Source: Domibacillus indicus (GTDB taxonomy: Bacteria; Bacillota; Bacilli; Bacillales; Domibacillaceae). From it: DNA of 64,000 nt. Both the position numbers and the translations under genes were made by a program. This document shows positions 40,168 through 60,584 of this stretch, piece by piece. Within the stretch, counting starts at the first letter, position 1. Every line of letters begins with the position of its first letter. The stretch covers positions 1-64,000 of the forward strand of contig NZ_JAMBOO010000008.1 of the NCBI RefSeq assembly GCF_023715895.1. Direction: 5' to 3'. The notes under the pieces are model-generated. The model saw only the letters and a program-made list of their open reading frames with translations. It was not told the DNA's origin and made no database searches.

Positions 40168-40175
40168 CCCCCTTT

Positions 40176-47079: not shown

Positions 47080-47118
47080 TTAGCGCCTCCTTTCTTCTGT
47101 AATCAAAAAGCGTACAGT

Positions 47119-47423: not shown

Positions 47424-48021
47424 GTTCAAGCTCCTTGTTCCAACCAAGAAAAGCCTGTGCATTTGGTTCATGATTTTCAGCGTCCGGCGGTTTCTTCCCT
47501 TCCTCTTGAGCAACTTTTTCTAAATAGCTCATTGCTGTACTATGCGTAAGCTGAGAAGGAGGCAACACAATTTGATACTCAGAAATACCTTGCTTCTTGA
47601 GATACTCTTCTGTAAGACTAATCAGCGCATCATCAGCTAACATTTCACTTACTGGACGGTTGTTCGCTTCCATTGGCAGGACATAAAAGACTCCTTCGTA
47701 TGAGAGCGACAGGCCGCTCAATGTAAGCATGACTCCCAAATAGTTAAATTCTGCTGTGCGGAATACACTGACCCCGCCTGCTTCTTTTGGAGGCTCTGGC
47801 TGAGGCGGCTCCACCACTGGTTCTTCTTTGTTTTTCCAAATACGGATATGCTGATATTCAGCCGATGTGCCAAGATCGATAAAGTGATCATCTGCTTTTG
47901 CTATCTCCTGGCTAGTGGCATATTTAATTGCCTGGCTATATGCTGCACCAATGTCCGGATAATTGGTTAGATTGAATTGATACACCTCGCCCGCCTTTTT
48001 AATTTCAGCAACAAAGTTCAT
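47416..48021 (-). CDS. hypothetical protein between terminase and portal genes (201 residues)
   Basis: MNFVAEIKKAGEVYQFNLTN at the start, a Pro/Glu-rich linker (EEPVVEPPQPEPPKE) and a beta-rich second half. The two-domain layout with a flexible linker is visible but no family is recognised. 15 bases after the terminase gene. Confidence 0.5.
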   Translation of the reverse strand: MNFVAEIKKAGEVYQFNLTNYPDIGAAYSQAIKYATSQEIAKADDHFIDLGTSAEYQHIRIWKNKEEPVVEPPQPEPPKEAGGVSVFRTAEFNYLGVMLTLSGLSLSYEGVFYVLPMEANNRPVSEMLADDALISLTEEYLKKQGISEYQIVLPPSQLTHSTAMSYLEKVAQEEGKKPPDAENHEPNAQAFLGWNKELEHE

Positions 48022-48035
48022 GGCACCTGTCCTCC

Positions 48036-49439
48036 TTAGAATGGTCTTTCGAATGCGTAAGCACCTGTATCCTTACCTGTAGCAAACGACAAAACGACCG
48101 CATCCGCTCTATCCGGCGAAGGCAGCCCTCTCTTTTTCATATCTTCTTTCCGCTCGATCGCAATCTTCCCTTTTGGAGTCATGCGATACTTACGCGTTGT
48201 CAGCTGGCTAATAAGTTTTTCATCATCCGGCAATTCAAGATCAAGCGGTTTTCCCTGTATGTGGCCAGAAAAGCTCTCTTCCAACACTTCACGAAGAGCG
48301 GCCCATGTTTCAGTTGCTTTATTATCGTAATGGTCATCATCTGACGCCCATCCGTTGTTAATTGGCTCTACTTTATAAGGCAGCCGCTGACGGTAAACTT
48401 CTTCTTCCAGCTCATCCGTCACACCACCGCCGACACCGCTGTCATCCACTCGGATAATTACGTTACGGATGAAAGGATACTGCTTGCGCATCTCCAAGGC
48501 TTTTGCCAACACATGACCGGTTGTTTTTGTTGTCCCCTGCTTTGAATGCACTTGGAGATCAAACACTTTACCGCCGATCCGTGGTGCAATAACCGTCTCA
48601 TCGTCCCCGTAACGGGCTACATCGACGCCAAGATATAAAGTATCTCCTGCAGCAGAAATACCGGCTCCTTTAGCCAGTTCTGCAAATTCAAGCGGAATAA
48701 AGGCATCTGCCTCTGCTTTTGGAAACTCACCGAGCACCCGGACGCGCCAAACGTCTGAGCCTTCATTATATTTCCGCTTCAGCATTTCAATGTTCTGCTT
48801 GCTTGTCCGCGGACTGTCTAAACTGGACACTTTATGCGTCTTGTATAGATCGCGATCGCGGTTATGAGAATCAAAAAACGTGCCGCTTGTTCGTGTCGGG
48901 TTTCCGCACATTAGCAGCTTATTTTCCGCACCTGATAAGGTACCGAGTATTGCTTCCATGATTGGATCCGCAACACCAGAAGCTTCATCCACGATAAAAA
49001 GCATGTAATCTTCGTGAAAGCCCTGCATGTTCTCTGGGCGTGTAGCGGTACGAGCGGTTGCAAACCAGCGCTCTTCAAAACCTGACATATAAACCCGTGT
49101 TTTGGTCCATTTTAAAAGGCTTTTCACCTTGGACCCTTCAAGCCATTTTGCTATCTCTGCCCACAGGACAGTGAACAGCTGCTCTTTTGAAGGAGCGGTA
49201 CAGATCACTTTCGGATTTGGACGACAGCATAAGAACCAAATACATGCGACCGATTCAAGCCCGGTCTTTCCTACTCCCTGGCCTGAGCGAATGCTTACAC
49301 GCGGATGCCCTGCCAGATCATTAAGGACCGCTCTTTGCCAATCATCCGGGTAAAAGCCTAGCATATCTTCTGCAAATGCCACTGGATCGTCCCAATATAC
49401 ATCGATAATGTCTGCCATTACGTTATATGGCTTACTCAT
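48036..49439 (-). CDS. terminase large subunit
   Basis: A 467-residue packaging motor. ATPase motifs are GQGVGKTG (Walker A) and LFIVDEASG (Walker B) with coupling motif MCGNPTRTSG. The RNase H-like nuclease has its acidic residues in LYLGVDVARYGDDETV, IIRVDDSGVGGGV and near DRADAVVL. It cuts and packages concatemeric DNA with the small subunit whose gene overlaps by 8 bases. Confidence 0.9.
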   Translation of the reverse strand: MSKPYNVMADIIDVYWDDPVAFAEDMLGFYPDDWQRAVLNDLAGHPRVSIRSGQGVGKTGLESVACIWFLCCRPNPKVICTAPSKEQLFTVLWAEIAKWLEGSKVKSLLKWTKTRVYMSGFEERWFATARTATRPENMQGFHEDYMLFIVDEASGVADPIMEAILGTLSGAENKLLMCGNPTRTSGTFFDSHNRDRDLYKTHKVSSLDSPRTSKQNIEMLKRKYNEGSDVWRVRVLGEFPKAEADAFIPLEFAELAKGAGISAAGDTLYLGVDVARYGDDETVIAPRIGGKVFDLQVHSKQGTTKTTGHVLAKALEMRKQYPFIRNVIIRVDDSGVGGGVTDELEEEVYRQRLPYKVEPINNGWASDDDHYDNKATETWAALREVLEESFSGHIQGKPLDLELPDDEKLISQLTTRKYRMTPKGKIAIERKEDMKKRGLPSPDRADAVVLSFATGKDTGAYAFERPF

Positions 49440-50331
49440 TTCCGTTACCTTCTCTTAAAGCCCGGCGACGAGCGGCAACTTCCTGCACAGCTGCAACCCA
49501 GGACTGCGAATCTTCATTTTTGTTACCTCCGCCTGCCTGCTGTTGAGCAAGTTTGAGCTTTTCTTCTTCAATGCGCCGCTTGAAGTGATCAGGAAGTAGG
49601 TCCGTATATATTTCTAGCTTCTCCAGCGCCTTCATTCTGTCGGCTAACTTTACAGAAACTCCAGCTTTTCCTTTTTTAACTTCAGTAATAATAGTGCCAT
49701 CGAATTCATCAGCATTTTTGAGATTTACAAAGCTGTAGTTATACGTCAATGGCTCTCCTTTTTTATTAAGGAGAGGTTCTCCCGTTCTAGGATCAAGCTG
49801 TAGCTCTTCTTTTTGTCCAAATTCTACATAGTCTTTTATGTCCGCAAAAGCAATATCTATGTATTTTTGCAGAATAGATTCAGCGTCTAACAAAATGCCT
49901 TCTGCGCGTTCCTTTTTCATGCGCTCAATTTCATTTTTAACACTAGGTTTCACTAGGGTTCTGTATCCTTCAACATTAGCTGTTGCGTAGCTGCAACCAT
50001 ATGCTTGGATATATGCTTTTGTGGCATTAAAATATTTTAGATAGTACAGACAGAAAAACCACTGTTTATCTGTTAATTCCGCAGAATCAGTGCTTTCTTC
50101 TTTTGCTTTTTTATTAGGTGAACGAGCCTTTTTCGTGTGCTTTTTCTTTTGTTGTACAACATTCTTTTTTGTTTGTTGTACAACATTCCATTTATCCCGT
50201 TGTTTCCAGACCGCAACTTTCTTTTCGTCTATACCTAGCTGTTCAGCGATAGCACGATTGGTTATGTTGCCTTTATGCTGCTTATAGAGCTCATGTGCTT
50301 TATCTCTGTTTGGATCACGTGGCCTGGCCAT
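49432..50331 (-). CDS. terminase small subunit
   Basis: A 299-residue protein. The N-terminal helix-turn-helix (NITNRAIAEQLGIDEKKVAV) is followed by a basic linker and the terminase_2 region with LTDKQWFFCLYYLKYFNATKAYIQAYGCSY. It recognises the packaging site and feeds DNA to the large subunit. Its head resembles YqaS of the skin element. Confidence 0.87.
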   Translation of the reverse strand: MARPRDPNRDKAHELYKQHKGNITNRAIAEQLGIDEKKVAVWKQRDKWNVVQQTKKNVVQQKKKHTKKARSPNKKAKEESTDSAELTDKQWFFCLYYLKYFNATKAYIQAYGCSYATANVEGYRTLVKPSVKNEIERMKKERAEGILLDAESILQKYIDIAFADIKDYVEFGQKEELQLDPRTGEPLLNKKGEPLTYNYSFVNLKNADEFDGTIITEVKKGKAGVSVKLADRMKALEKLEIYTDLLPDHFKRRIEEEKLKLAQQQAGGGNKNEDSQSWVAAVQEVAARRRALREGNGNE

Positions 50332-50369
50332 ATTACATCACCGCCGCCTCCTGCCTTTAAAAAACTGTT

Positions 50370-50711
50370 TTATTGTTTCTTCTCAGCTTTTTTCTGCATT
50401 TCTCTTGCATAAGCATCCGCTTCGCTGTTAAATGCACTATAAAAGTCGTTTTCCTTTAATACCTGGTGTAACACCGCTCCTACACGGCGAATCATATCTT
50501 CTTCCTGTTCATCAAATCCGGCTTCGTAAAAAACACCATGCAGTACTTCATGCGTAAGTACCTGGTTTTTTCGATCTTCAGACATTGTTTCGTCCAGCTG
50601 AATAATCCCTTTATGGTAATGAATCTGACCTAGAAGACTAAAATCCTCATTCATGTTTTCTACTTTTTGGACATCATAATTAATGCTGCCGACTTTAACG
50701 TTTTCCAACAT
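50370..50711 (-). CDS. HExxH metallopeptidase-like prophage protein
   Basis: A 113-residue protein with VLTHEVLHGVFYEAGFDEQE, a zinc-binding HExxH motif with a downstream Glu/Asp-rich helix. It resembles minimal ImmA/SprT-like metallopeptidases; substrate unknown. AGGAGG is 11 bases upstream of the ATG. Located directly before the terminase genes. Confidence 0.65.
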   Translation of the reverse strand: MLENVKVGSINYDVQKVENMNEDFSLLGQIHYHKGIIQLDETMSEDRKNQVLTHEVLHGVFYEAGFDEQEEDMIRRVGAVLHQVLKENDFYSAFNSEADAYAREMQKKAEKKQ

Positions 50712-50759
50712 CCAATTTTTGCCTCCTAACTTTTTGATGGACTTTTAAGAAAAAAAAAA

Positions 50760-50778
50760 AGCACCGCGGTGGGTGCTT
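50760..50778 (-). terminator. terminator of the proteasome-like gene
   Basis: AGCACC / GGTGCT arms with eleven A on the left side, giving a long U tail on the minus strand. Member of the recurrent AGCACC/GAGCAYCC terminator family. Confidence 0.75.
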
Positions 50779-51412
50779 ATTTTAGAAATTCAAATTGAAT
50801 ATTTTGATTGCACGTTTCCGGATAGCGGGCTGCAGATTTCCTTAGATAATCATTAGCAGCCTTCTTAACCAAGCTTAAATTCAAATTAGTAGGATTTATA
50901 CGGTTAACAAATTCATCCTGTAAATCTCCTAAATTTGGTTCGCCTGCAAAAATCACATTGTAATTTTCCTCAAAAACATCGTGATAATTAAGCTTGGGTG
51001 TTCTTCCAGAAACGCTATTCATAGTAAAAGTTATTAGGTTAGCAATAGGCTTACTACTACAAATTAAAACATTAAAATTATATGCTCCGCCATCTTGTCC
51101 AGTAATGCTTTTGCAAAATTCCAAGGCCATATGAGCAAATACTTCTATTTCAGTTTCTTCGTCCGAATTTTGTATTAGATAATTAATTAAATCTTGATGG
51201 CGACCGGTAGTAAAACGACCAGTCACCCCTAGTAGCTTATTATAAATTTTAAATATCTTTTTTGCGTTTTCATCCTGTTCAATGCTAGCCAAAATTTCTC
51301 GGCCATCTATTATATCGTAATTTCTTGTAACGCTTTTTGAATCGGCACCCATTAACACATAGGGTTTTAAACCCTCTTTTGGCTTTACAGCTATCACTAA
51401 TAAAACAGTCAT
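50777..51412 (-). CDS. proteasome/HslV-like Ntn-hydrolase of the prophage
   Basis: A 211-residue protein. AGGAG lies 8 bases before the ATG at 51412, so translation begins MTVLLVIAV; Met removal would expose an N-terminal Thr. After the strand comes VLMGADSKSV (Asp24, equivalent of catalytic Asp17) and NAKKIFKI (Lys52, equivalent of Lys33), then LLGVTGRF (Gly47-like loop). This reproduces the Thr1-Asp/Glu17-Lys33 triad of beta-type proteasome/HslV subunits, where KKLFQI precedes a similar loop. No ATPase partner gene is adjacent. The fold assignment is from motif recognition. Confidence 0.6.
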   Translation of the reverse strand: MTVLLVIAVKPKEGLKPYVLMGADSKSVTRNYDIIDGREILASIEQDENAKKIFKIYNKLLGVTGRFTTGRHQDLINYLIQNSDEETEIEVFAHMALEFCKSITGQDGGAYNFNVLICSSKPIANLITFTMNSVSGRTPKLNYHDVFEENYNVIFAGEPNLGDLQDEFVNRINPTNLNLSLVKKAANDYLRKSAARYPETCNQNIQFEFLK

Positions 51413-51439
51413 ACTTACAGCTCCTCTCATCGCTCATAA

Positions 51440-51449
51440 TTCGACAAAA
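51440..51449 (-). promoter_or_regulatory. TTTTGTCGAA motif (0A-box-like) upstream of the proteasome-like gene
   Basis: TTCGACAAAA on the plus strand is the reverse of TTTTGTCGAA, which contains the Spo0A box core TGTCGAA. The same decamer occurs at 52528-52537 and 55516-55525. It lies about 30 bases before the start codon in a region otherwise lacking an obvious promoter. Confidence 0.35.
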
Positions 51450-51510
51450 GGAGATAATTTCCTTCTTCAACTCCTTACGCTAATCGCCCCTGTATTTGGA
51501 CATAAAAAAT

Positions 51511-51528
51511 AGCACCGGTTAGGGTGCT
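51511..51528 (-). terminator. terminator of the membrane-anchored protein gene
   Basis: AGCACC-GGTTAG-GGTGCT with A6 on its left (U tail on the minus strand). Confidence 0.7.
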
Positions 51529-51534
51529 GTATTG

Positions 51535-52182
51535 TTAATCCTTTCTATTGAGGAAACTATAATCCATAAATCCATTGCCAAGCTCTTTGCTGTCATAATC
51601 AAGATGGCATGTTTCTAGCATTTGGTTGCATTCTTTAATAACAGTTTTAACTATGTTGGCAATTAGCTCGACTTCTTCTTTTTCGAAAGCCTGTTTCCTT
51701 TCTTCGTCTTCCCAATCAAATTGAGAGTATTCATGACAAAATCTATAAGCTACTGCTAATTTCAGTAGCTTTTGGGTAGAGAACTCTTTTTTATCGATTA
51801 TTTTTTCCGCAATGGCCAACTTATTGAAGTCGGTGATCGCATTATGTATTACTTCCTCTGTCCGCTTTGTAACCCGATTAGTAATCAAATTCCTCACTTC
51901 TTTTACTCTTTTGCTGGTTAATTCAATAAAGGGATACTCTTCAAAGGGGGTCTCTTGTCCGGAATGTCGTTTTTCAAAATATCTAACATATTCAGACTGT
52001 GAAACTATTCCGTACAGCTCTAAATAAAGCTCTTTTAATTGATTGTAACTGTGTTCCCTTTTAAACTTTCTTTTATCTTCAAACAAGTCTAACTTATTCT
52101 TTAAGTAATGAAAGATTAAATTTGTTAAGAAAGTCGCTGCAACTGTAATTACGGCTATTATTATTTTGTCTTGCATGGTCAT
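51535..52182 (-). CDS. membrane-anchored helical protein of unknown function (215 residues)
   Basis: One N-terminal membrane span (IIIAVITVAATFLTNLIFHY) is followed by a long soluble, charged helical domain. This resembles phage superinfection-exclusion or lysogenic-conversion proteins in layout only; no family recognised. Start uncertain between ATG 52182 and ATG 52176. It lies in a group of independent single-gene units. Confidence 0.55.
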   Translation of the reverse strand: MTMQDKIIIAVITVAATFLTNLIFHYLKNKLDLFEDKRKFKREHSYNQLKELYLELYGIVSQSEYVRYFEKRHSGQETPFEEYPFIELTSKRVKEVRNLITNRVTKRTEEVIHNAITDFNKLAIAEKIIDKKEFSTQKLLKLAVAYRFCHEYSQFDWEDEERKQAFEKEEVELIANIVKTVIKECNQMLETCHLDYDSKELGNGFMDYSFLNRKD

Positions 52183-52239
52183 GTCACCTGACCTCCATAC
52201 ATCTTACATTCATCGAGAGAAATTCTCTTCATACGAAAT

Positions 52240-52257
52240 AGCACCCCGTAGGATGCT
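52240..52257 (-). terminator. hairpin of the AGCACC family after the YjcQ-like gene
   Basis: AGCACCC-CGTA-GGATGCT with weak A/T flanks. Confidence 0.5.
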
Positions 52258-52262
52258 TATTT

Positions 52263-52502
52263 TCACGCATTTTCTCTTATATAGATCTGACCTCTTTGCG
52301 TTACTACAGGATTCATATAGATATTTTTAAAGAATTTGTTACCGGGACCACCAAACAGCAAGGTTAATCCTGTTGCCAACTCATTCGTTTTAATAAATTG
52401 CAACGCATTTCCAAACTCCTCTAGTTCTACACCATAATCATTTTCAGTAGGTTTTTTACCATCGTTTATGTCTGTAAGTACTCTTACTACCAAGTCAGTC
52501 AT
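52263..52502 (-). CDS. YjcQ-like small prophage protein (79 residues)
   Basis: NDGKKPTENDYGVELEEFGN ALQFIKTNELATGL resembles the winged-helix YjcQ family seen in Bacillus prophages (ND-GV-EF--A--FL---G-I-G). AAAGGAGAT precedes the ATG. Upstream is a TTTTGTCGAA motif. Possibly DNA binding. Confidence 0.5.
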   Translation of the reverse strand: MTDLVVRVLTDINDGKKPTENDYGVELEEFGNALQFIKTNELATGLTLLFGGPGNKFFKNIYMNPVVTQRGQIYIRENA

Positions 52503-52527
52503 TCAATCATCTCCTTTCGCCTTATAT

Positions 52528-52537
52528 TTCGACAAAA
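52528..52537 (-). promoter_or_regulatory. TTTTGTCGAA motif upstream of the YjcQ-like gene
   Basis: TTCGACAAAA followed (minus strand) by ATATAAGG; the block CCTTTTTGTCGAAATATAAG resembles the one before the proteasome-like gene. Candidate Spo0A box or operator. Confidence 0.35.
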
Positions 52538-52613
52538 AGGATTCACTTTCCTCTTCCACCGACTCCAGTCATTCATGGTATCCTATTCAAGTGACATCAA
52601 AGGAGTATGCAGC

Positions 52614-52715
52614 ATGGAAACAAAAATTGATTTAAGCATCACCTATAACATCCGTGAATACCCGGACATGAAAAGCGGCCGTTGCGATAACCGCTGCATG
52701 AAGAAAATTATCTAA
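52614..52715 (+). CDS. small Cys-containing peptide (33 residues), opposite strand
   Basis: METKIDLSITYNIREYPDMK followed by SGRCDNRCMKKII. AAAGGAG is 8 bases upstream of the ATG, an extended -10 TGGTATCCT lies at about 52577-52585 and a hairpin with T7 follows the stop (52715-52745). It is a plus-strand unit within a minus-strand region, so it has its own control. Function unknown; a regulatory peptide is possible. Confidence 0.5.
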   Translation: METKIDLSITYNIREYPDMKSGRCDNRCMKKII

Positions 52716-52777
52716 CCCCGCTGAATGGCAGGGTTTATTTTTTTACTCTCTCACATATACATCGGCTGTACGACAAA

Positions 52778-52818
52778 ACAGTCTCTTTCACGAAACTAGA
52801 AAGAGACTGTTGTTTTTC
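52778..52818 (-). terminator. bidirectional terminator after the riboswitch operon
   Basis: ACAGTCTCTTTC / GAAAGAGACTGT arms (12 bp) with loop ACGAAACTA. Flanks are A/T-rich. The loop sequence TTTCACGAAAC also occurs in the hairpin at 53992-54024. Confidence 0.75.
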
Positions 52819-52824
52819 TGCTCT

Positions 52825-53394
52825 TTAATTATTTTTAGAACGTCCATAACGACGCTCAACGCTAATGCTGCTTCTATTCAGCTTTTGAGCAATCTTTTTA
52901 AAGCTTTTCCCTTCTTCTCTCCACTTTAAGAGGTGTTCAATTTCTTTTGTCGTCCAGCGTTTATATGCCTTTATCGTCTTGTCTGTATTACTCTTACGAG
53001 CTTCATCTACCCAATCTGGTTCTGGAGGCAGCGCATGTTTTTCGACGATACTAAAATCGATTTTGTCTTGGTTTTGTTCAGCCCATTCCCAAAAAGAATT
53101 AATATCAACCAGAATAAATTTTCGCTCGTAACAAGTTATTCGTGATATTGCTTCAAGTCCATGGAACTGAACCCAATGGTATACAGTTTTTCTTTCCACA
53201 TGTAAGGCTTCAGCCAGCTCACTGCCTGTTAAAAGGCCTGTTGCGTATTTTGTGTTTCCAAGACCCATTCTCTTTAATTTCAACGAAACAGCTGTCTCGC
53301 TTCGGTTAAGTTGTTTAGCGATGGCCGATAAGGAACAGTTGCCAACACGCTTCTGCAAAAAGGAAACGTCTTTTTCTGTCCATTTTCTTCCCAT
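52825..53394 (-). CDS. putative phage regulator with HTH/SANT-like repeats
   Basis: A 189-residue protein. The N terminus (MGRKWTEKDVSFLQKRVGNC ...SAIAKQLNRSETAVSLKL) and C terminus (RWTTKEIEHLLKWREEGKSF KKIAQKLNRSSISVERRY) are two Myb/SANT-like DNA-binding units around a MerR-like excisionase HTH (LTGSELAEALHVERKTVYHW). It starts 2 bases after the preceding stop, so it shares the riboswitch-headed operon and is probably the regulatory output. Confidence 0.7.
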   Translation of the reverse strand: MGRKWTEKDVSFLQKRVGNCSLSAIAKQLNRSETAVSLKLKRMGLGNTKYATGLLTGSELAEALHVERKTVYHWVQFHGLEAISRITCYERKFILVDINSFWEWAEQNQDKIDFSIVEKHALPPEPDWVDEARKSNTDKTIKAYKRWTTKEIEHLLKWREEGKSFKKIAQKLNRSSISVERRYGRSKNN

Positions 53395-53396
53395 CT

Positions 53397-53720
53397 TTAT
53401 TGGCCTATCCTTTTGCCTTCGAAAATAGACTGAAGCCTGGTCTCTGCTTCATGAATATCCATTGATAAACCCGTTAGAAAGGCTAAAATGTTATCTTTCT
53501 CCGAAAGTTTTCTCATGGTCTGAAATACAATAGGCTTATGCTCTTTTATCAATGTCATAACTTCAATTGTAGGCAGTACGCCTTTTTGAATATTTCCTCT
53601 TAAAAAAGACCGTAAAAACCTTACAAATACAAAAGTCGAGTCCACACTGTTGGGATAATTTTTTAATAGGACAAAGAACTTTTCAATATTTGTTTTTAAT
53701 TCATTTGTTTCCTTCCGCAT
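53397..53720 (-). CDS. hypothetical helical protein, first gene of the riboswitch operon (107 residues)
   Basis: MRKETNELKTNIEKFFVLLK start, all-helical, no membrane span or recognised family. AAGGTGG precedes the ATG at 53720. The gene lies 54 bases downstream of the c-di-GMP riboswitch aptamer. Confidence 0.6.
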   Translation of the reverse strand: MRKETNELKTNIEKFFVLLKNYPNSVDSTFVFVRFLRSFLRGNIQKGVLPTIEVMTLIKEHKPIVFQTMRKLSEKDNILAFLTGLSMDIHEAETRLQSIFEGKRIGQ

Positions 53721-53747
53721 ATTTTAACCACCTTAAATAATATTGGT

Positions 53748-53775
53748 CCAAATACGGAGGTACTCTCCTATTTGG
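53748..53775 (-). promoter_or_regulatory. hairpin (candidate expression platform) next to the riboswitch
   Basis: CCAAATA...TATTTGG arms with an inner GGAG/CTCC pairing form a 28-base hairpin that shares its first two bases with the 3' side of the aptamer stem. It could compete with the ligand-bound fold. The downstream sequence is A/U-rich (AATATTATTT) but not a clean U tract. Confidence 0.45.
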
Positions 53776-53850
53776 CAACCCGGCTATCATGATTCATCTA
53801 ATGAATGTTAGACCCGTGGCTTTGCGTCCTTACCTTTCGATAAGTTTGCC
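53774..53850 (-). promoter_or_regulatory. cyclic-di-GMP-I (GEMM-I) riboswitch aptamer
   Basis: On the minus strand the 77 bases read GGCAAAC...TCGAAAG... GGACGCAAAGCC ACGGGTCTAA ... ATAGCCGGGTTGCC. This reproduces the GEMM-I consensus: GGCAAAC at the 5' P1, GAAA tetraloop, GACGCAAAGCC, GGGTCTA and the terminal AGCCGGGTTGCC closing P1. A -10 (TATAAT, 53869-53864) lies just upstream. It controls the two-gene regulatory operon at 53720-52825. Confidence 0.88.
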
Positions 53851-53863
53851 TTTTTCATTAAGA

Positions 53864-53869
53864 ATTATA
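53864..53869 (-). promoter_or_regulatory. -10 element of the riboswitch transcript
   Basis: A perfect TATAAT in minus-strand direction places the start of transcription about 10 bases before the aptamer. A TTCGACA (53890-53884) lies in the spacer; the TTGACA further up is too far for a standard promoter, so the -35 is unclear. Confidence 0.5.
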
Positions 53870-53991
53870 TAAAAATTAAATCATGTCGAATAATGTCAAG
53901 TCAATAATTTTAGTAATTGAACCAAACAATTCAATTAAACTTACTCTTTGGCCCCAGTATTTGATTACACCATTTTTATCATTTATTTCAA

Positions 53992-54024
53992 GCAGCCTTT
54001 TTCACGAAACAAGAAAAAGGCTGC
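53992..54024 (+). terminator. hairpin overlapping the end of the sigma-like gene
   Basis: GCAGCCTTTTTC / GAAAAAGGCTGC arms with loop ACGAAACA, then CGGTTTTT on the plus strand. It overlaps the last 20 bases of the gene at 54002-54493. Confidence 0.55.
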
Positions 54025-54493
54025 CGGTTTTTCGACCTTCAATTTTCCGCTCTGCCCGCTCTAAGTACGTCTGCACAGATGATTTAGTAAGCCCCAGCAA
54101 CTCCGCTGTGTACTCATACGTTAACCCTTCTGCTTTTACTAATGTAAATACATCTCTTTCCCTTGCTGTTAAATCAGCCAACACATCATCCAGCAGCCAT
54201 TGTTCATGCGCTGTAAGTTTTCTCTCTTCACTGGCCACTTGGTTTGGTACTACAGCTTCAATCAGTTTCGGATCCAACGTATAAGCCCCTGTCCGATCAG
54301 CTCCGCGTCTTGCATCAGGGTTCCGGCCAGACATCATCCACTGAAGAGCAAACTCTACTTCGCTGATCATGCTGTTGATGAGCGTCTTATCCTGAATATC
54401 CTGCTCCAACAATTCCGATTTTGCTTCAATAGCTGCTTTCATTTCTTTCAACGCCCGCAACGATTGTTTATATTCATAGATAAGTTTTCTCAT
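54002..54493 (-). CDS. sigma-70-like late regulator (Xpf/ArpU type)
   Basis: A 163-residue protein. The C-terminal region-4-like HTH (TARERDVFTLVKAEGLTYEY TAELLGLTKSSVQTYLERAE) is preceded by a helical N part with ISEVEFALQWMMSGRNPDAR, resembling Xpf of PBSX and YqaQ-type positive control factors. It should switch on late genes after induction. Confidence 0.72.
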   Translation of the reverse strand: MRKLIYEYKQSLRALKEMKAAIEAKSELLEQDIQDKTLINSMISEVEFALQWMMSGRNPDARRGADRTGAYTLDPKLIEAVVPNQVASEERKLTAHEQWLLDDVLADLTARERDVFTLVKAEGLTYEYTAELLGLTKSSVQTYLERAERKIEGRKTGSLFLVS

Positions 54494-54506
54494 TTAAAGT
54501 CCCCCT

Positions 54507-54713
54507 TTATTTATAGGCGCCGCCACGACCACGGCGAAGTGTTTTCATGTTGGTATTCATTAAATAGCGTAAATCCTGTTCAGTAAGCTTTTCTTTCTTT
54601 TTCGCAGGCTGCTTTTTATTTGCTTTGGGCTTCTGTTTTCTCTTTTGCGTTGACTTAACAGGAACAGGATTTACTTCACGCCATTGTCGCAGTTGGTCTT
54701 TCATTGTTTTCAT
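54507..54713 (-). CDS. small basic protein (68 residues)
   Basis: MKTMKDQLRQWREVNPVPVK start; rich in Lys (about a quarter of residues) with RGRGGAYK at the end. AAAGGAG is 8 bases upstream of ATG 54713. 13 bases before the sigma-like gene, so probably co-transcribed. Nucleic-acid binding is likely from composition only. Confidence 0.5.
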   Translation of the reverse strand: MKTMKDQLRQWREVNPVPVKSTQKRKQKPKANKKQPAKKKEKLTEQDLRYLMNTNMKTLRRGRGGAYK

Positions 54714-54732
54714 CTTCACAACTCCTTTTCAG

Positions 54733-54785
54733 CCATTAAAAAAGAGCACCAAATAAACGCCACATTTGCGTTTATTCAGTGCCCT
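54733..54785 (-). terminator. terminator of the 60-residue gene
   Basis: GGGCACTGAATAAACGC / GCGTTTATTTGGTGCTC arms with U6 on the minus strand. Confidence 0.75.
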
Positions 54786-54841
54786 TGGGTTTTCCAATAA
54801 GCGTATTCATTTAGCTAAATCACAATTTCGAATACCTTTAT

Positions 54842-55024
54842 TTACCGCTTGTTTTCAATATCACCCAGCGATAATATAAGTAGGTCAGTTGCTTCAAGAA
54901 ATGTTAATTTAATTTTTTTAAGTTTAAATATTTTGTTCCGAAGAGACAGTCCGTTGTCTCTTCTTTTTTTGTGTTTAATTATGAATAACATTTCATGAAC
55001 TGGTGCATACTTATAAAGATTCAT
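54842..55024 (-). CDS. hypothetical prophage protein (60 residues)
   Basis: MNLYKYAPVHEMLFIIKHKK start, basic; the C terminus LTFLEATDLLILSLGDIENK is helical. ATG 55024 is preferred, with AGGTGGCG about 8 bases upstream. It has its own terminator. Function unknown. Confidence 0.45.
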   Translation of the reverse strand: MNLYKYAPVHEMLFIIKHKKRRDNGLSLRNKIFKLKKIKLTFLEATDLLILSLGDIENKR

Positions 55025-55060
55025 TCTTGTTCGCCACCTAAGAAGGATCATTTTGTCTAA

Positions 55061-55090
55061 AGCCGAGCTCTCTGCCCGGCTTTTTTTGTG
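55061..55090 (+). terminator. plus-strand terminator
   Basis: AAAGCCG / CGGCTTT arms with T7. It may close a short plus-strand transcript or a divergent leader. Confidence 0.55.
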
Positions 55091-55230
55091 TGCTGACCGC
55101 TAAATGAGAATATATATTGACGATGGAAGAAGGAAGCGGGTTGACTCTTCTTTCTTTTTCTCTTTCAGTTTAAATTGACCATAATAATAATACGTTAAGT
55201 TTTAATAAGAGGGAATTATCACGCATTTTT

Positions 55231-55404
55231 TTAAAACCGTATATCCGTCTCCAGCTTAGCGTGACAAGGCTTATTTCCCTGCCAGCTGATAATTTGCTTA
55301 CCATGTCCGCTTTCAGGCTTGTCGACCTCCCTTAGCTTACCGTCCTTAACCACATATACGGCGTCTTTCAATAAGTTAATTTCTGCTGTTGTTTTGATCT
55401 CCAC
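55231..55404 (-). CDS. DUF3954-like prophage protein (57 residues)
   Basis: EIKTTAEINLLKDAVYVVKD, then GKLREVDKPESGHGKQIISW, matching the small DUF3954 family of Bacillus phages (xxKTTAEINLL-DAVY-VKDGKL-EV-KPESG-GKQII-W). A GTG at 55404 is used; GGGGG lies about 8 bases upstream. Function unknown. Between 55100 and 55230 nothing else is seen. Confidence 0.6.
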   Translation of the reverse strand: MEIKTTAEINLLKDAVYVVKDGKLREVDKPESGHGKQIISWQGNKPCHAKLETDIRF

Positions 55405-55453
55405 AAGAGCGCCCCCAGTCTGTTAAAATAAGATTGTCAGTAATATTTTAAAG

Positions 55454-55490
55454 AGCTGAGGAACTTCCTCGGCTTTTATTTTTTTATCAA
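55454..55490 (+). terminator. plus-strand terminator before the first Spo0E-like gene
   Basis: GCTGAGG-AACTT-CCTCGGC followed by TTTTATTTTTTT. It ends an unknown short transcript initiating after 55404. Confidence 0.6.
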
Positions 55491-55515
55491 ACAAAAAATG
55501 CAATCTTTTCAGAAC

Positions 55516-55525
55516 TTTTGTCGAA
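55516..55525 (+). promoter_or_regulatory. 0A-box-like motif upstream of the first Spo0E-like gene
   Basis: TTTTGTCGAA contains the Spo0A box TGTCGAA and extends to the TTTGTCGAA consensus. It lies 85 bases before the ATG. Confidence 0.4.
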
Positions 55526-55551
55526 CATATTGTCATTTCTCTTCAAGCATC

Positions 55552-55594
55552 ATATGATTCTTTCTGTTGTATTTTTAAATAAATAGAATCATAT
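55552..55594 (+). repeat. 10-bp inverted repeat before the first Spo0E-like gene
   Basis: ATATGATTCT and AGAATCATAT are separated by 23 bases; the second arm ends just before the AGGAG. It could be an operator or a leader hairpin affecting translation. Confidence 0.5.
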
Positions 55595-55609
55595 AGGAGA
55601 AATGACGCG

Positions 55610-55777
55610 ATGAACAATCAATTTAATCTAGATGAGTTAGCCATTGAAATTAAAAATGTTCGCAAGTTAATGATCATCACCGGTACAAATAAAGGTCTTG
55701 GAAATAGCGAAACTATTAAATACAGTCAAGAGCTGGATAATTTAATTTTTCAATTTCAGTTACAAAGCCTGAGTTAA
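55610..55777 (+). CDS. Spo0E-like aspartyl-phosphate phosphatase (55 residues)
   Basis: LDELAIEIKNVRKLMIITGT then YSQELDNLIFQFQL. The signature SQELDxLI with an upstream helix of I..R..M is that of the Spo0E family, small helical-hairpin phosphatases that dephosphorylate Spo0A~P. AGGAGA lies 9 bases before the ATG. Expression is on the plus strand, opposite to the structural genes. It should delay host sporulation. Confidence 0.8.
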   Translation: MNNQFNLDELAIEIKNVRKLMIITGTNKGLGNSETIKYSQELDNLIFQFQLQSLS

Positions 55778-55819
55778 CACTTCACCAATTAAATGTTGTT
55801 TTTGTAGATATTTTTTGAA

Positions 55820-55917
55820 TCAAGTATGCTATAGCTGTTGAGATCCTCCTTCCACCGCTTACACTTCTATGACAATCTTTGTATGTTGAAGATCTCCTCG
55901 GCTTTTTTTGAAACTTT
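55820..55917 (+). ncRNA. possible short transcript unit between Spo0E-like gene and small membrane protein gene
   Basis: An extended -10-like TATGCTATAG (about 55829-55838), then a segment ending in ATCTCCTCGGCTTTTTTT (55891-55909). There is no ORF. It resembles in layout the sRNA cassettes further right. Evidence is weak. Confidence 0.3.
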
Positions 55918-55967
55918 TTATTTTCCCCTTCGTATATAATCTCATTACATTTTGAAGGAGTACTATC

Positions 55968-56102
55968 ATGTTTAATGAAGAAAGAATATTTTTAGGTATT
56001 TTAATTTCCGGCCTTGTTTTAGCTTTAATTGTTCCTTATTCAAGAGAAGTTATATTTAACTCGATTTCACAACTCGGCAATGTAACCATTTCTGGATTTT
56101 GA
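55968..56102 (+). CDS. small membrane protein (44 residues)
   Basis: MFNEERIFLGILISGLVLAL start with one hydrophobic span and a polar C terminus ending TISGF. GAAGGAG is 7 bases before the ATG; TATAAT (55935-55940) lies 28 bases upstream. A terminator GCCAGGGATTTCCCACGGC with ten T follows (56141-56172). It could be a holin-like or toxin-like peptide; no family recognised. Confidence 0.6.
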   Translation: MFNEERIFLGILISGLVLALIVPYSREVIFNSISQLGNVTISGF

Positions 56103-56140
56103 TACTTATCCGAGCATCTTGATTACAATTTTCTATTTTT

Positions 56141-56172
56141 CAAGCCAGGGATTTCCCACGGCTTTTTTTTTT
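56141..56172 (+). terminator. terminator after the 44-residue gene
   Basis: GCC..GGG-ATTT-CCC..GGC with a T10 tail. Confidence 0.7.
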
Positions 56173-56258
56173 AGATTTTCCACCAAACATTCGTTTCTTT
56201 TTTGTGAAAAATATCCTATAATTTAACTAGTTTCTATTTTGAATTCAGGAGGATTTAC

Positions 56259-56426
56259 ATGAAAAACAACCAACCACTCCTTGATGATTTATCATCTCAA
56301 ATTCAGAAGCTTCGTCACTTAATGGTTTTATCTGCTGATATTTATGGATTTGGTAGTTTGGAAGTATTGCGTTACAGCCAGGAACTAGATGAATTAATTA
56401 TTCAGTTTCAGCTTCAAAATAGATGA
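56259..56426 (+). CDS. second Spo0E-like aspartyl-phosphate phosphatase (55 residues)
   Basis: LLDDLSSQIQKLRHLMVLSA and YSQELDELIIQFQLQNR. It has the same length as the gene at 55610-55777 and shares SQELDxLIxQFQLQ with it, so the two are a recent paralogous pair. AGGAGG is 8 bases before the ATG. A terminator (AGCTGGAG-TTTT-CTTCAGCT, 56437-56462) follows. Confidence 0.82.
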   Translation: MKNNQPLLDDLSSQIQKLRHLMVLSADIYGFGSLEVLRYSQELDELIIQFQLQNR

Positions 56427-56436
56427 CTAATTGTAG

Positions 56437-56462
56437 AGCTGGAGTTTTCTTCAGCTTTTTTG
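56437..56462 (+). terminator. terminator after the second Spo0E-like gene
   Basis: AGCTGGAG-TTTT-CTTCAGCT followed by TTTTTT; the promoter of the next cassette begins within 5 bases. Confidence 0.7.
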
Positions 56463-56553
56463 TATAAACTTTTCTTCAATGGACCATAATGAGATTGTTA
56501 TCCAAACCCACTCCTAAGCTTTCTGCAGTCAGGTCCCGCCTGGCTGTTTTTTT
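56461..56553 (+). ncRNA. candidate small RNA cassette 1
   Basis: TGTATA - 18 bases - CATAAT (56485-56490), start of transcription near 56497, then the hairpin CAGTCAGG-TCCCG-CCTGGCTG (56526-56546) and T7. No ribosome binding site is present. The predicted RNA is about 57 bases. It shares promoter spacing, an AAACCC/AAATCC segment and terminator with cassettes 2 to 4. Confidence 0.5.
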
Positions 56554-56557
56554 ACGC

Positions 56558-56600
56558 AAACCTCAACTACCTACAGCTACTCTGTCGGTAGTTGAGGTTT
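56558..56600. repeat. 14-bp perfect inverted repeat
   Basis: AAACCTCAACTACC / GGTAGTTGAGGTTT with a 15-base loop TACAGCTACTCTGTC. It is longer than the terminators around it and lacks a clear T tract. It could be a hairpin at a transcript end, a replication or an operator element. From 56601 to 56890 there are two further hairpins (about 56650-56685 and 56777-56810) and no gene. Confidence 0.55.
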
Positions 56601-56890
56601 GTTTGAATATTCTTATAACGGGTAACTATGCAATCAGGTCCTTCCCAAAGCGGGGTAGCTGTTAAATGGCTGCTCCGTTTTTTGTGTGGATAATTGGTTT
56701 GCTTTCCTGCTCTCTGGGTATTATCAGTAAAGTACCAACTACCCCCATCTAAAGCTTACTCATCTTTTTTTTCGGAGGGCCTTCGGTTCTTCGGCTTTTT
56801 TGTTTGTTTTTTTGATGAGTCGGGTACATTCATAGCAATAAGAATCCTATCCTAAATATGTGTGGTGGTTTTGAGATAGGAATTCTTTTT

Positions 56891-56917
56891 GCCGAGGTTT
56901 CTCCCTCGGCTTTTTAT
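56891..56917 (+). terminator. terminator before cassette 2
   Basis: GCCGAGG-TTTCTC-CCTCGGC with T5. The cassette 2 promoter begins two bases later. Confidence 0.7.
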
Positions 56918-56918
56918 T

Positions 56919-57025
56919 TGCATAAACTCCCTAATAATGGGGCATAATGGTGCTGTCACAACCCAAATCCAACTCCAATAAATCGTAGCTTTGTCTACAG
57001 TCAGGCCGCTACCTGGCTGTTTTTT
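56919..57025 (+). ncRNA. candidate small RNA cassette 2
   Basis: TGCATA - 18 bases - CATAAT (56943-56948), then about 50 bases containing AACCCAAATCCAACTCC, then CAGTCAGG-CCGCTA-CCTGGCTG (56998-57019) and T6. The predicted RNA is about 70 bases. A 13-codon ATG frame inside has no ribosome binding site. Confidence 0.5.
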
Positions 57026-57101
57026 GTATATTTTTCTCTATTGTTGGAAATGATCATTATCGAGGCGTTAATCCCCTTGCGATAAATTAACGTTCTTGAT
57101 A

Positions 57102-57133
57102 GCCTTGGAGTTTGAGAACCTCCTTGGCTTTTT
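57102..57133 (+). terminator. terminator before cassette 3
   Basis: GCCTTGGAG ... CTCCTTGGC and T5. It closes a transcript from 57026-57101 of unknown nature (an ATTATCGAGGCG... segment with no gene). Confidence 0.65.
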
Positions 57134-57134
57134 C

Positions 57135-57238
57135 TGCATAAATTTTATCTAACGGATCATAATAATTCTGTTGGTTTCAAATCCAACTCTTACAGCTCAT
57201 TACATTTCTACAGTCAGGTTCCTGCCTGGCTGCTTTTT
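57135..57238 (+). ncRNA. candidate small RNA cassette 3
   Basis: TGCATA - 17 bases - CATAAT (57158-57163), a body with CAAATCCAACTC, then CAGTCAGG-TTCCTG-CCTGGCTG (57211-57232) and a T5 tail. Predicted RNA about 68 bases. Confidence 0.5.
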
Positions 57239-57246
57239 GTTTTATT

Positions 57247-57377
57247 TGCATAAAAGACTCTACGATAACGTATAATGATCATGTTTTACACAGTTTGGAT
57301 TTCGCTTCTTATATACAAATGCTAAAATGAAACATCACCCTCTTATTTGCAGTCAGCCGCCACCTGGCTGTCTTTTT
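57247..57377 (+). ncRNA. candidate small RNA cassette 4
   Basis: TGCATA - 18 bases - TATAAT (57271-57276, the best -10 of the set), then CAGTCAGC-CGCCAC-CTGGCTG (57350-57370) and T6. Its terminator overlaps the 3' end of the convergent protein gene at 57343. Predicted RNA about 95 bases. Confidence 0.5.
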
Positions 57378-57678
57378 TATGCAAATCCCATCGTTTCTTT
57401 GCTTCCTGCAGCCATCCTATCGGCAAATTAGGATAGCGACTAATAATGTTTTCCTCGGTTAAACCTTGTTTGAGATACCGCTCGTATTGCTGCTTGTTTG
57501 GCTTTGTCAGACATAGCTCATTTCTTTTGCGTTTACCGTTTTTAGAAAAACGAAGGGCATCATTTTGTTCTGCTTTTTTCACATAAACCGGCCTCTTTGA
57601 TTCAAACTTTTCTTTACAATAGGTTTTAACTTCTTCTGGTGTCCATTGCTGTTTAATGACTGCTCCACGGTATGCCAT
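57343..57678 (-). CDS. hypothetical prophage protein (111 residues)
   Basis: MAYRGAVIKQQWTPEEVKTY start, basic, with NLPIGWLQEAKKRWDLHKKD near the end. AGGGGGA is 9 bases before the ATG. It overlaps the end of the IDEAL-domain gene by 100 bases and its last 28 bases overlap cassette 4. Role unknown. Confidence 0.55.
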   Translation of the reverse strand: MAYRGAVIKQQWTPEEVKTYCKEKFESKRPVYVKKAEQNDALRFSKNGKRKRNELCLTKPNKQQYERYLKQGLTEENIISRYPNLPIGWLQEAKKRWDLHKKDSQVAADCK

Positions 57679-57977
57679 TGTTGTTTTCCCCCTATCAATT
57701 CTTTAAACCACTGCTCATCCTTTGTTAAAAGTGCCAGGTCAATGAGCGCTGATTTATCCTGGTACTTGTCCCAAAAATCATCAATTGGTTCCAATTGCTC
57801 TTCTGTAAAGATGCCGGGTACTGGTGTTCTAAACTCAAATTCACCATCTTTGATCCGTATTACTTTTGTGAGTTCGATCTCATATCCTTGAAACCCGCTT
57901 TGCACAATACTGCTCACATAACCAATTACCGTCATACCGCCAATTTGTACTTTCCTCCACTCTCCTACTTTTAACAA
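57579..57977 (-). CDS. IDEAL-domain prophage protein
   Basis: About 132 residues. VGEWRKVQIGGMTVIGYVSS IVQSGFQGYE is a beta-barrel-like head and DKSALIDLALLTKDEQWFKE is the IDEAL motif. After that motif the frame continues for about 35 residues over the RBS and start of the next gene; this is unusual and might reflect a lost stop codon or frameshift. TTG 57977 is preferred because GGGGGGTG lies 6 bases upstream; GTG at 57986 overlaps it. Confidence 0.55.
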   Translation of the reverse strand: MLKVGEWRKVQIGGMTVIGYVSSIVQSGFQGYEIELTKVIRIKDGEFEFRTPVPGIFTEEQLEPIDDFWDKYQDKSALIDLALLTKDEQWFKELIGGKQQWHTVEQSLNSNGHQKKLKPIVKKSLNQRGRFM

Positions 57978-58154
57978 AGTTTTCACCCCCCAGTTTTCTT
58001 ACTTTCTTTATTTCACTTTTTCTCTGAATTTATTCCTTCTAAAAAATAAAGATACAAGAATATTCTTAACTGGGAACGCTTGTGTAATTTGCTATCAGAA
58101 GTATTCGGAATAAGATAGAGTGGAGCTTTACCTAATCTCCCACCCTCGCCAAGG

Positions 58155-58191
58155 CTGCCACCCCTTTTATTTTATTTTTCGGACGTACTGT
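58155..58191 (+). repeat. repeat R1, copy 1
   Basis: CTGCCACCCCTTTTATTTT followed by ATTTTTCGGACGTACTGT. A second copy is at 59176-59211. Both lie about 105 to 120 bases upstream of a small plus-strand gene. Confidence 0.75.
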
Positions 58192-58296
58192 TGAGTAAAA
58201 AGTACTAAATTGTGATATTCTAGAATGATAGACGTCTATTGGATTCTTTGAGACTTTTCTTAGTCACTTTCCTTTGATGGGAAAGGGGGTGATGAA

Positions 58297-58515
58297 ATGT
58301 CCCTTGAAAGTATAAAGATGATGTTGGAGTTTATGCAGCATCATAGAAATACTAAAATCATTTATACTTTCAAAAATAACAACCATCCTGTAGCTTTAGT
58401 TTGTTTAAAAAACATTGGTATGATACAAATTATATTTTCTCAACTGCCAAATGAAATCAGCTACTACCATGATGCAGATGAAGCTGCATCTGTTATCGAC
58501 AAACTAATAAATTAA
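58297..58515 (+). CDS. hypothetical prophage protein (72 residues)
   Basis: MSLESIKMMLEFMQHHRNTK start; IIYTFKNNNHPVALVCLKN is a short beta segment. AAAGGGGGTG precedes the ATG and an A/T-rich hairpin follows (58532-58560). On the plus strand, between repeats R1 and R2. Confidence 0.55.
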   Translation: MSLESIKMMLEFMQHHRNTKIIYTFKNNNHPVALVCLKNIGMIQIIFSQLPNEISYYHDADEAASVIDKLIN

Positions 58516-58573
58516 AATTTTTTTATATTAACTCCTTTGAGATTTCAAAGGAGTTTTTTAATTGCATAGTTTC

Positions 58574-58632
58574 TGTCTACTGTTAAGGAGGGACAGCCCC
58601 TCCCGCGTTGATTAAGCAGCTCCGTCCTGCTC
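58574..58632. repeat. repeat R2, copy 1
   Basis: Contains GGAGGGACAGCCCCTCCC (hairpin) and GATTAAGCAGCTCCGTCCTG. Related copies are at about 59074-59129 and 59470-59530. On the minus strand part of it could encode DEQDGAA-stop, a possible coding origin. Confidence 0.7.
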
Positions 58633-58807
58633 CTTCATCTTTTGGCAGATATTCCTCTTCGAACTACTCTCCCAGTGTGATCAACAAGGTTTTCCATCTA
58701 AAAAAAAGCCATTTTAGGTCTCCTTTTTCATAAACAAAAACGTTTATTCCCCAAAAAATTGGGTAACTTAAAATCGCGATATTTGTGTGTCTGGAGGTTT
58801 TCTCAAT

Positions 58808-58978
58808 ATGTCTTCAAATGAACTCTTTTTGTGGTTATTTTTATCGATTTTAGAACTCGTTCTTATCTTTCCAATCATTTTAAGAATGATGAAGTTACAA
58901 GGCTTTTCGGAATCAAAAAATAAATTTTTGGATAAGAAAATTCAAAAGCTTGAAAAAAAAGATAAATCATCTGATTAG
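58808..58978 (+). CDS. small membrane protein with basic tail (56 residues)
   Basis: MSSNELFLWLFLSILELVLI then a second part FPIILRMMKLQGFSES and a Lys-rich tail (KKIQKLEKKDKSSD). One long membrane span followed by a coiled-coil-like basic tail, like small holin or toxin proteins. GGAGG lies 10 bases before the ATG; GTG at 58787 is upstream of the RBS and less likely. Confidence 0.6.
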   Translation: MSSNELFLWLFLSILELVLIFPIILRMMKLQGFSESKNKFLDKKIQKLEKKDKSSD

Positions 58979-59073
58979 GGTGCGTTTATATTTGTTTTAC
59001 TTCTTAAACAGAAAAATGTACGAAATTGAACTTACTTTCCCATATTCATCAATTTTTTTGCATATTTCTCTAC

Positions 59074-59129
59074 AACCACTGTTAAGAAGAGAGTACCCTC
59101 TGTACTAATTAATACCGTCCTGCTCGTCT
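59074..59129. repeat. repeat R2, copy 2 (degenerate)
   Basis: Shares TACCGTCCTGCTCGTCTCC and the opening CACTGTTAAGAAGAGAG with copies 1 and 3; the hairpin is partly lost. Confidence 0.55.
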
Positions 59130-59175
59130 CCTTTTTAAAAATATCCTTCATTCCAATTCCTAGTTCTTATCGAGT

Positions 59176-59211
59176 CTGCCACCCCTTTTACTCAATTTTC
59201 GGACGTACTGT
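59176..59211 (+). repeat. repeat R1, copy 2
   Basis: CTGCCACCCCTTTTACTC followed by AATTTTCGGACGTACTGT, nearly identical to 58155-58191. Confidence 0.75.
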
Positions 59212-59329
59212 CTAGCAAGCCAAACTTGTTTGTTTACTTCCGAACAAAAAGATGGTCGTCATAAAATTTCTCCACATTAGTTCTAGGCAGTTGGGAAAAC
59301 TATAAGAAATTAACAAGGAGGAACCTTTC

Positions 59330-59449
59330 ATGCCAAAAAAACAGTCCAGTGAAAAACTCTTTCATGTAATTTCAGGTATTATAGTAATTATAGTTACAGT
59401 CTTATATTATTGGCTTCTTGCCAGAATCCACGGCTTTCCCATGAACTAA
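59330..59449 (+). CDS. small membrane protein (39 residues)
   Basis: MPKKQSSEKLFHVISGIIVI start, one membrane span, short C terminus ending HGFPMN. AAGGAGG precedes the ATG at 8 bases. Lies between R1 copy 2 and R2 copy 3. Confidence 0.6.
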   Translation: MPKKQSSEKLFHVISGIIVIIVTVLYYWLLARIHGFPMN

Positions 59450-59469
59450 CTCCTAAGCCCATTTTATCG

Positions 59470-59530: not shown

Positions 59531-59543
59531 TTTCTCTTCCTCT

Positions 59544-60570: not shown

Positions 60571-60584
60571 GCTGTCTTCTCTCC

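Follow-up and report, generated by a model that had tools for sequence, protein, structure and literature searches.

The minus strand of the window, by which we mean the whole 64,000-nucleotide stretch of Domibacillus DNA that was analysed, carries a riboswitch aptamer and, downstream of it on the same strand, two open reading frames, P0001 (107 aa) and P0002 (189 aa), with two bases between the P0001 stop codon and P0002. The initial annotation had placed a two-gene operon behind a near-perfect GEMM-I consensus on this strand, and both parts of that description held. The Infernal search with RF01051 that it proposed as a check was run with cmscan over the 64 kb and gave a match at 53860..53771 (-), covering positions 1-87 of the 87-position model with 91.0 bits and an E value of 8.5e-17, well above the gathering score of 35 bits. 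The unit is composed of the following features.

53875..53904 (-): promoter-like element TTGACT-N18-TTTAAT, conserved among Domibacillus leaders
53884..53890 (+): Spo0A-box core TGTCGAA within the promoter spacer, exact in 11 of 12 Domibacillus leaders
53771..53860 (-): c-di-GMP-I riboswitch aptamer (RF01051), full-length, 91 bits
53765..53775 (-): 5' arm of hairpin H1, CCAAAUAGGAG, with a CC common to aptamer stem P1 (53774-53778)
53748..53759 (-): 3' arm of H1, CUCCGUAUUUGG, with an alternative pairing to the start-codon region
53728..53734 (-): Shine-Dalgarno-like AAGGTGG of P0001, read from the sequence
53397..53720 (-): P0001, 107 aa, of an unnamed family, the conserved partner of the riboswitch (family searches, aptamer scans)
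52825..53394 (-): P0002, 189 aa, phage-type, with three HTH-like segments (profile and phage-record matches)
52778..52810 (-): hairpin behind P0002, the likely transcript end (folding)

The aptamer ends 50 nt ahead of the P0001 start codon. It contains GGCAAAC at 53850-53844, with a G preceding CAAAC, and a G rather than an A at this position is taken to select c-di-GMP over cGAMP; c-di-GMP is the presumed ligand. The genome to which the window belongs (G000) contains 20 RF01051 matches, and a genome of the same species (G061) contains 14. By eye, the targets of the c-di-GMP-I aptamers in G000 include PAS/sensor proteins, a chemoreceptor-like protein and secreted proteins. The sole other Rfam match in the window at gathering thresholds was a cspA thermoregulator leader (20904-21288, minus strand); it is accompanied by a cold-shock-type ORF and lies about 2.8 kb in from the left end of the prophage described below.

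Strong hairpins lie on both sides of the unit, one at the end of the upstream sigma-like gene (~54025-53991; -20.3 kcal/mol, z -5.1) and one 3' of P0002 (~52810-52778; -18.8, z -3.3). Both have loops of 9, beyond the limit of 8 in our consensus terminator scans, and are thus absent from them; over this stretch the scan lists only 52735-52714. Because these hairpins stand just before and just after it, the riboswitch-P0001-P0002 unit looks like a transcription unit of its own. It is placed between a late-regulator-like gene and the terminase genes. The P0002 start, only two bases behind the P0001 stop, suggests that translation of P0002 may be coupled to that of P0001.

P0001 had no Pfam, PHROGs or NCBIfam match, and its best profile match in the PDB (E 0.42) was not credible. 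A search of 61 genomes found 29 P0001 matches in 16 genomes, and in 25 of the 29 an aptamer of the c-di-GMP-I or c-di-GMP-I-GGC type was located 42-76 nt ahead of the start codon. The four places without a detected aptamer were L033, L032 and the broken copies L049 and L050; eroded aptamer remnants could be seen by eye at L032 and L050. A profile search of the whole order found P0001 relatives in 53 of 397 genomes and in 22 of 135 genera. It gave 28 loci (L154-L181), nine of which repeat places from the 61-genome search; the remaining 19 (L163-L181) were scanned and 11 had an aptamer, or 10 of 18 once L165, the same place as L038, was counted only once. An aptamer was not detected at L163, L171, L172, L176-L179 and L181. 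In total, the aptamer was directly upstream in 35 of the 47 P0001 places scanned and was not detected in 12. Outside close relatives the gene neighbourhoods of P0001 mostly differ. At one place (L044/L051, genome G020) two P0001 genes stand in tandem, each with a separate aptamer.

The initial annotation had put the HTH gene in the foreground; the conserved partner of the riboswitch is P0001. Searches of 50,697 phage records and 72,556 plasmid records gave no P0001 match, and neither did pattern scans of IMG/VR. The spread of P0001 among hosts, the frequent aptamer upstream and the absence from phage and plasmid records lead us to conclude that the P0001 family belongs to hosts and that riboswitches of this class usually control it. 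We found no report of a riboswitch-controlled family of this kind, and no paper on a Domibacillus riboswitch, in our searches of the open-licence PMC literature. The median NG86 dN/dS was 0.22 for P0001 (55 of 78 pairs usable, the other 23 being dropped because dS was undefined or saturated) and 0.14 for P0002 (28 of 28 pairs), ratios that indicate purifying selection on both.

We then analyzed the region between the aptamer and the start codon, where hairpin H1 is predicted to form. We aligned 20 of the 25 leaders, which gave 19 distinct rows, and the base pairs of H1 were formed in 98.5% of cells; L038, L039, L040, L048 and L052 were left out because their platforms differ. One compensating pair, A-U to G-C, occurred in three sequences, and the number of changed pairs was equalled by 329 of 500 shuffles. 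The 3' arm of H1 can also pair with the start region: in 19 of 24 leaders this pairing was bettered or equalled by at most 5 of 44 control starts, and in 8 it beat all 44. Pairing was no better than in the controls at L044 (35 of 44 as good), L048 (21), L046 (18) and L052 (17), and against shuffles of the leader's own region it was weak in several cases (e.g. 57 and 62 of 200 as good).

When the P1 strand was removed and transcripts ended at the start codon, the predicted exposure of the Shine-Dalgarno sequence was at least 0.05 lower in 18 of the 25 leaders; in the other 7 of these platform-only folds of the same length the change was within 0.05, and exposure was raised in none. With 12 or 24 coding bases added, a fall of at least 0.05 was seen in 10 of 25 leaders, of which only one was among the 12 from Domibacillus. 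For the leader of the window itself, exposure in the platform-only fold went from 0.57 to 0.53, and for L038 from 0.44 to 0.40, though the design of the latter looks clear by eye. In more distant relatives, other sequences seem to carry the same scheme. At L038 and L166 the P1 strand complements a downstream strand that would otherwise face the Shine-Dalgarno sequence, and at L040, L052 and L164 a CUCCU strand near P1 complements the Shine-Dalgarno sequence itself; all five anti-Shine-Dalgarno designs were read by eye as OFF switches. Termination of transcription after the aptamer was rejected for the window, where no U-tract follows H1. The conservation of H1, the pairing with the start, the platform-only folds and the designs seen by eye together point to a translational, kinetic switch that is turned OFF at high c-di-GMP, a direction that we consider rather probable. 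The platforms of the relatives suggest that c-di-GMP turns translation OFF, and the folding of the window's own leader is indecisive.

ON-type c-di-GMP riboswitches exist, and the opposite direction, in which c-di-GMP turns the operon ON and the aptamer averts a block to expression, would agree with two of our results. With transcripts 6 bases short of the start, two P0002-linked leaders (L045 and L053) reversed, showing 0.25 exposure in the free form against 0.61 and 0.68 in the bound form. Full-leader equilibrium folding with P1 forced did not favour OFF either, the exposure being more than 0.05 lower in none of the 25 leaders and higher in one. Set against these are the 18 of 25 leaders that point to OFF at start-codon length and the five designs above, and the lack of a U-tract behind H1 makes a terminator, as one such block, unlikely. 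We regard the ON direction as quite improbable and keep the OFF reading in what follows.

Next, we examined the promoter. The TATAAT at 53869-53864, initially named as the promoter, had a counterpart in only 2 of the 12 Domibacillus leaders whose aptamer is intact (the window, listed as L025, and L029), whereas TTTAAT (53880-53875) was present in all 12 and was preceded at 17-18 bases by TTGAC in 10. TATAAT was therefore replaced by the TTGAC/TTTAAT pair, which occurred in none of 13 leaders of other genera. The spacer of this element contains TTCGACA, the reverse of TGTCGAA, a documented Spo0A core (PMC3485338). It was exact in 11 of the 12 Domibacillus leaders, which are homologous to one another, and in 1 of the 13 from other genera, about 8.3 such cores being expected by chance per 64 kb. 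The genome encodes Spo0A (349 bits, cut-off 200). The spacer box resembles the box TTTTTGTCGAATATTGACGAATT upstream of abrB in the same genome, where a tandem box stands just upstream of the abrB ORF (recognised by eye). Of the eight TGTCGAA cores in the window, four fall within 51.4-55.6 kb (binomial P 0.001 to 0.0045, for a region chosen afterwards), and every one of the four is followed within 100 bp by an ORF or the leader. Spo0A~P probably acts as a further repressor of the promoter.

The same element could be the site of another conserved host regulator, or a core promoter only. Only one of its two half-sites is a perfect Spo0A core, the core is nearly confined to Domibacillus, and the P0001 promoters do not match the strict tandem 0A pattern, which had two matches in the genome (abrB and a leader on contig C92) against a control count of one. 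The likeness to the abrB box and the clustering of cores before ORFs and leaders speak against this reading, which we hold to be possible, well below an even chance, and we continue with repression by Spo0A~P as the probable one. The possibility that the element is a shared operator of the phage repressor was rejected, since it also precedes P0001 copies that have no sigma or P0002 homologue in the 15-20 kb fetched (e.g. L026, L028, L030, L031 and L043).

Other boxes of this type were noted. Boxes with the sequence TTTGTCGAA on the minus strand at 51440 and 52528 lie about 10 and 26 bp before the ORFs 50777-51430 and 52263-52502, neither of which had a family match over cut-off. On contig C92, a tandem Spo0A-type box and a c-di-GMP-I aptamer (C92:2555-2641, L148) precede a LuxR-type response regulator; by eye, an anti-Shine-Dalgarno strand CCUUCCUU stands opposite AAGGAAGG.

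The second gene of the unit had been described as a protein with SANT and MerR-like HTH units. This was a fair description: P0002 matched HTH_38, HTH_23, HTH_11 and Sigma70_r4_2 over the cut-offs, and Myb and MerR_1 below them. It also matched phrog_323, 'D5-like transcriptional regulator'. Relatives with 28-33% identity were present in 8 of the 50,697 phage records, two of them annotated as SANT-domain proteins, and two IMG/VR contigs encode relatives with 39-40% identity. Both contigs also carry genes related to the window's DUF3954-type gene and to its helicase loader, and one carries a relative of its sigma-type gene; no aptamer or P0001 was found in the 7-8 kb fetched from them. Because of these relatives in phage records and IMG/VR contigs, P0002 is classed, by homology, as a phage-type DNA-binding protein.

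Among 13 Domibacillus genomes, close P0002 copies (76-84% identity) were found in seven other places and distant copies (33%) in four genomes. All seven close copies stand directly behind a P0001, which in L073 is broken, and among the loci looked at this arrangement occurs only in Domibacillus. When unlinked rows are included, the P0001 tree does not unite the P0002-linked rows in a single clade, and this scatter suggests that loss or reshuffling of P0002 is likely.

The initial annotation had placed the operon in a prophage, and comparison with the same-species genome G061 bears this out. The contig matches G061 up to 18104 and again from 72256, with a 19-base overlap at the join, leaving a prophage of about 54.2 kb that is missing from G061, where the site is empty. 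The relevant features are the following.

18086..64000 (no strand): part of the prophage within the window; the element runs to ~72274 of the contig
54002..54493 (-): positive-control sigma-like factor upstream of the unit (phrog_1190, E 7.7e-41; NF005385, 135.5 bits, cut-off 136), which we take to be Xpf-like

Within the prophage we found matches to RecT, a helicase loader, the sigma-like factor, terminase, portal, head, tail sheath, tape measure, baseplate and endolysin, and, beyond the window, to an integrase and a repressor-type regulator. With the integrase, structural genes, tail sheath and endolysin, the element has the appearance of an entire phage with a contractile tail. Of the 13 Domibacillus genomes, only the one that carries the prophage has its large terminase, whose closest phage counterparts share 68% and 64% identity with it; no aptamer was found in the 25 kb searched of Parageobacillus phage JGon-2020a, the nearest terminase relative. 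In the head region, the protein encoded at 43857-44300 (-) matched the NCBIfam gas vesicle accessory protein GvpU (80.1 bits, cut-off 70) and also phrog_14356 (function unknown).

The sigma gene is open in the window and broken in relatives. A relic of it lies just upstream of the unit in 5 of the 7 other P0001-P0002 places, and two further P0001 loci have one (L071; L063, ~4.5 kb away). The relics are interrupted or truncated in all 7 loci. Five of these loci retain an open P0001; P0002 is likewise open in five and missing from the other two. Since the relics are broken, P0001 and P0002 are mostly open and both are under purifying selection, the P0001-P0002 module appears to outlast its phage neighbourhood, as a tendency.

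The remark that GEMM aptamers are rare in phages was also borne out. Fourteen IMG/VR contigs matched a strict aptamer pattern, which undercounts, and all 14 passed Rfam (13 RF01051 and 1 RF03167), although some of them may be host DNA. By eye, one of these aptamers (L106) stands amid tail/lysis-like genes, and three (L103, L105 and L109) are upstream of HD-domain-like proteins. The riboswitch described here is not the first in a prophage, since c-di-GMP-I aptamers Cdi1_4 and Cdi1_5 have been described in C. difficile phiCD630-1 and phiCD630-2 (PMC3649979, PMC7699646). The present case varies a known theme: a host-type unit of riboswitch and gene stands in a phage, with a phage DNA-binding gene added to it.

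Two further genes of the prophage bear on Spo0A. They lie on the opposite strand, about 1.8 and 2.4 kb from the riboswitch, and both score above the curated PF09388 cut-off.

55610..55777 (+): Spo0E-like protein 1 (PF09388, 45.6 bits, cut-off 23), with a TGTCGAA core ~85 bp upstream
56259..56426 (+): Spo0E-like protein 2 (PF09388, 45.7 bits, cut-off 23)

From their family, the two proteins are possible antagonists of Spo0A~P. A general link between Spo0E and P0001 was rejected: besides the two in the window, a Spo0E-like regular expression found 2 matches (L167 and L169) in 48 flanks of 47 distinct places, none in 27 larger loci (L054-L080) and none in a 122-kb control.

The explanation that we prefer for the whole locus, with a chance only slightly better than even, is a captured host c-di-GMP OFF unit with a Spo0A-repressed promoter and a coupled P0002. 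Its fixed points are the aptamer, the gene order, the association with P0001 across genera and the location in a prophage. A temperate contractile-tailed Domibacillus phage would carry a captured host unit of promoter, c-di-GMP-I riboswitch and P0001, with the phage DNA-binding P0002 placed second, two bases behind P0001. In motile or growing cells, where c-di-GMP is low, H1 would form from the strand behind the aptamer and leave the P0001 start free, and P0001 would be made and, through coupling, P0002. At high c-di-GMP, the aptamer would close P1 and weaken H1, the 3' arm of H1 would pair with the ribosome site or start codon, and both genes would be off. As the promoter would probably be repressed by Spo0A~P too, production of both proteins by the lysogen may be limited to cells that are not sessile and not on the way to sporulation. 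Ligand, direction, coupling, Spo0A control, capture from a host and the target of P0002 are the conditional steps of this scheme.

The unit could instead be passive cargo (a moron), with P0001 acting on the host, P0002 carried along or regulating host genes, and the phage gaining nothing from sensing c-di-GMP. We consider this, P0002's role included, a serious contender that stays somewhat short of even. It would fit the occurrence of P0001 in 22 of 135 genera and its absence from the phage, plasmid and IMG/VR scans, and also the unit's own promoter-like element and end hairpin. Moreover, P0001 and P0002, each open in 5 of the 7 loci with a broken sigma gene, seem to serve something besides phage growth. 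Less easily accommodated are the phage-type character of P0002 and its place 2 nt behind P0001, from which its dose probably follows the switch, and the position of the unit between a late-regulator-like gene and the terminase genes. We thus retain the captured OFF unit as the preferred explanation. The proposal in the initial annotation that a host signal sets the expression of a phage regulator survives in part: a complete aptamer does head a prophage operon with a phage-type DNA-binding gene, but P0001 is of host type and P0002 stands behind it only in Domibacillus.

A more far-reaching version, in which the phage captured a host c-di-GMP switch and its gene, put its own regulator behind them and, with the Spo0A-type promoter and the Spo0E-like pair, assembled a two-input circuit, is doubtful. 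If it is true, the prophage would both sense and bias whether its host is motile, forms a biofilm or sporulates, with its own programme coupled to the outcome. In this locus an RNA switch connects a messenger of bacterial lifestyle with a DNA-binding regulator of a phage; a virus may here read the lifestyle of its host, and the prophage offers a testable example in which one virus would combine signals for motility/biofilm with those for sporulation. P0001, an unnamed family over 22 genera whose genes usually have a c-di-GMP-I aptamer, offers a direct handle on the role of c-di-GMP in these bacteria.

Among known systems, the prophage Spo0E-like genes, which likely act on Spo0A~P, are comparable with the phage Spo0E, AbrB and Rap genes that are described as adjoining RRNPP systems (PMC10075063); here, in contrast, they are near a c-di-GMP riboswitch. 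The Bc1 riboswitch of B. thuringiensis is similar in that added c-di-GMP draws its ribosome site and AUG into a stem-loop; as described in PMC11218506, Bc1 differs in having two terminators and in standing before mcpE, and it gave no response to c-di-GMP in transcription in vitro. Cdi1_4 and Cdi1_5 share with our case a c-di-GMP-I aptamer within a prophage. In one paper, downstream transcript levels of these riboswitches are reported to be lower when c-di-GMP is high; it also cites an earlier report of insensitivity (PMC3649979, PMC7699646). They are described as part of the lysis module, where they precede an antitoxin RNA and act by premature termination, whereas the present aptamer lies between a late-regulator-like gene and terminase and precedes protein-coding genes. 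Finally, our riboswitch shares with the c-di-GMP-I (GEMM-I) riboswitches of RF01051 a complete aptamer on the 5' side of a gene, and its genome has 20 such aptamers; it differs in its target, an unnamed 107-aa family together with a phage HTH protein, and in a platform that appears to be translational, with no terminator.
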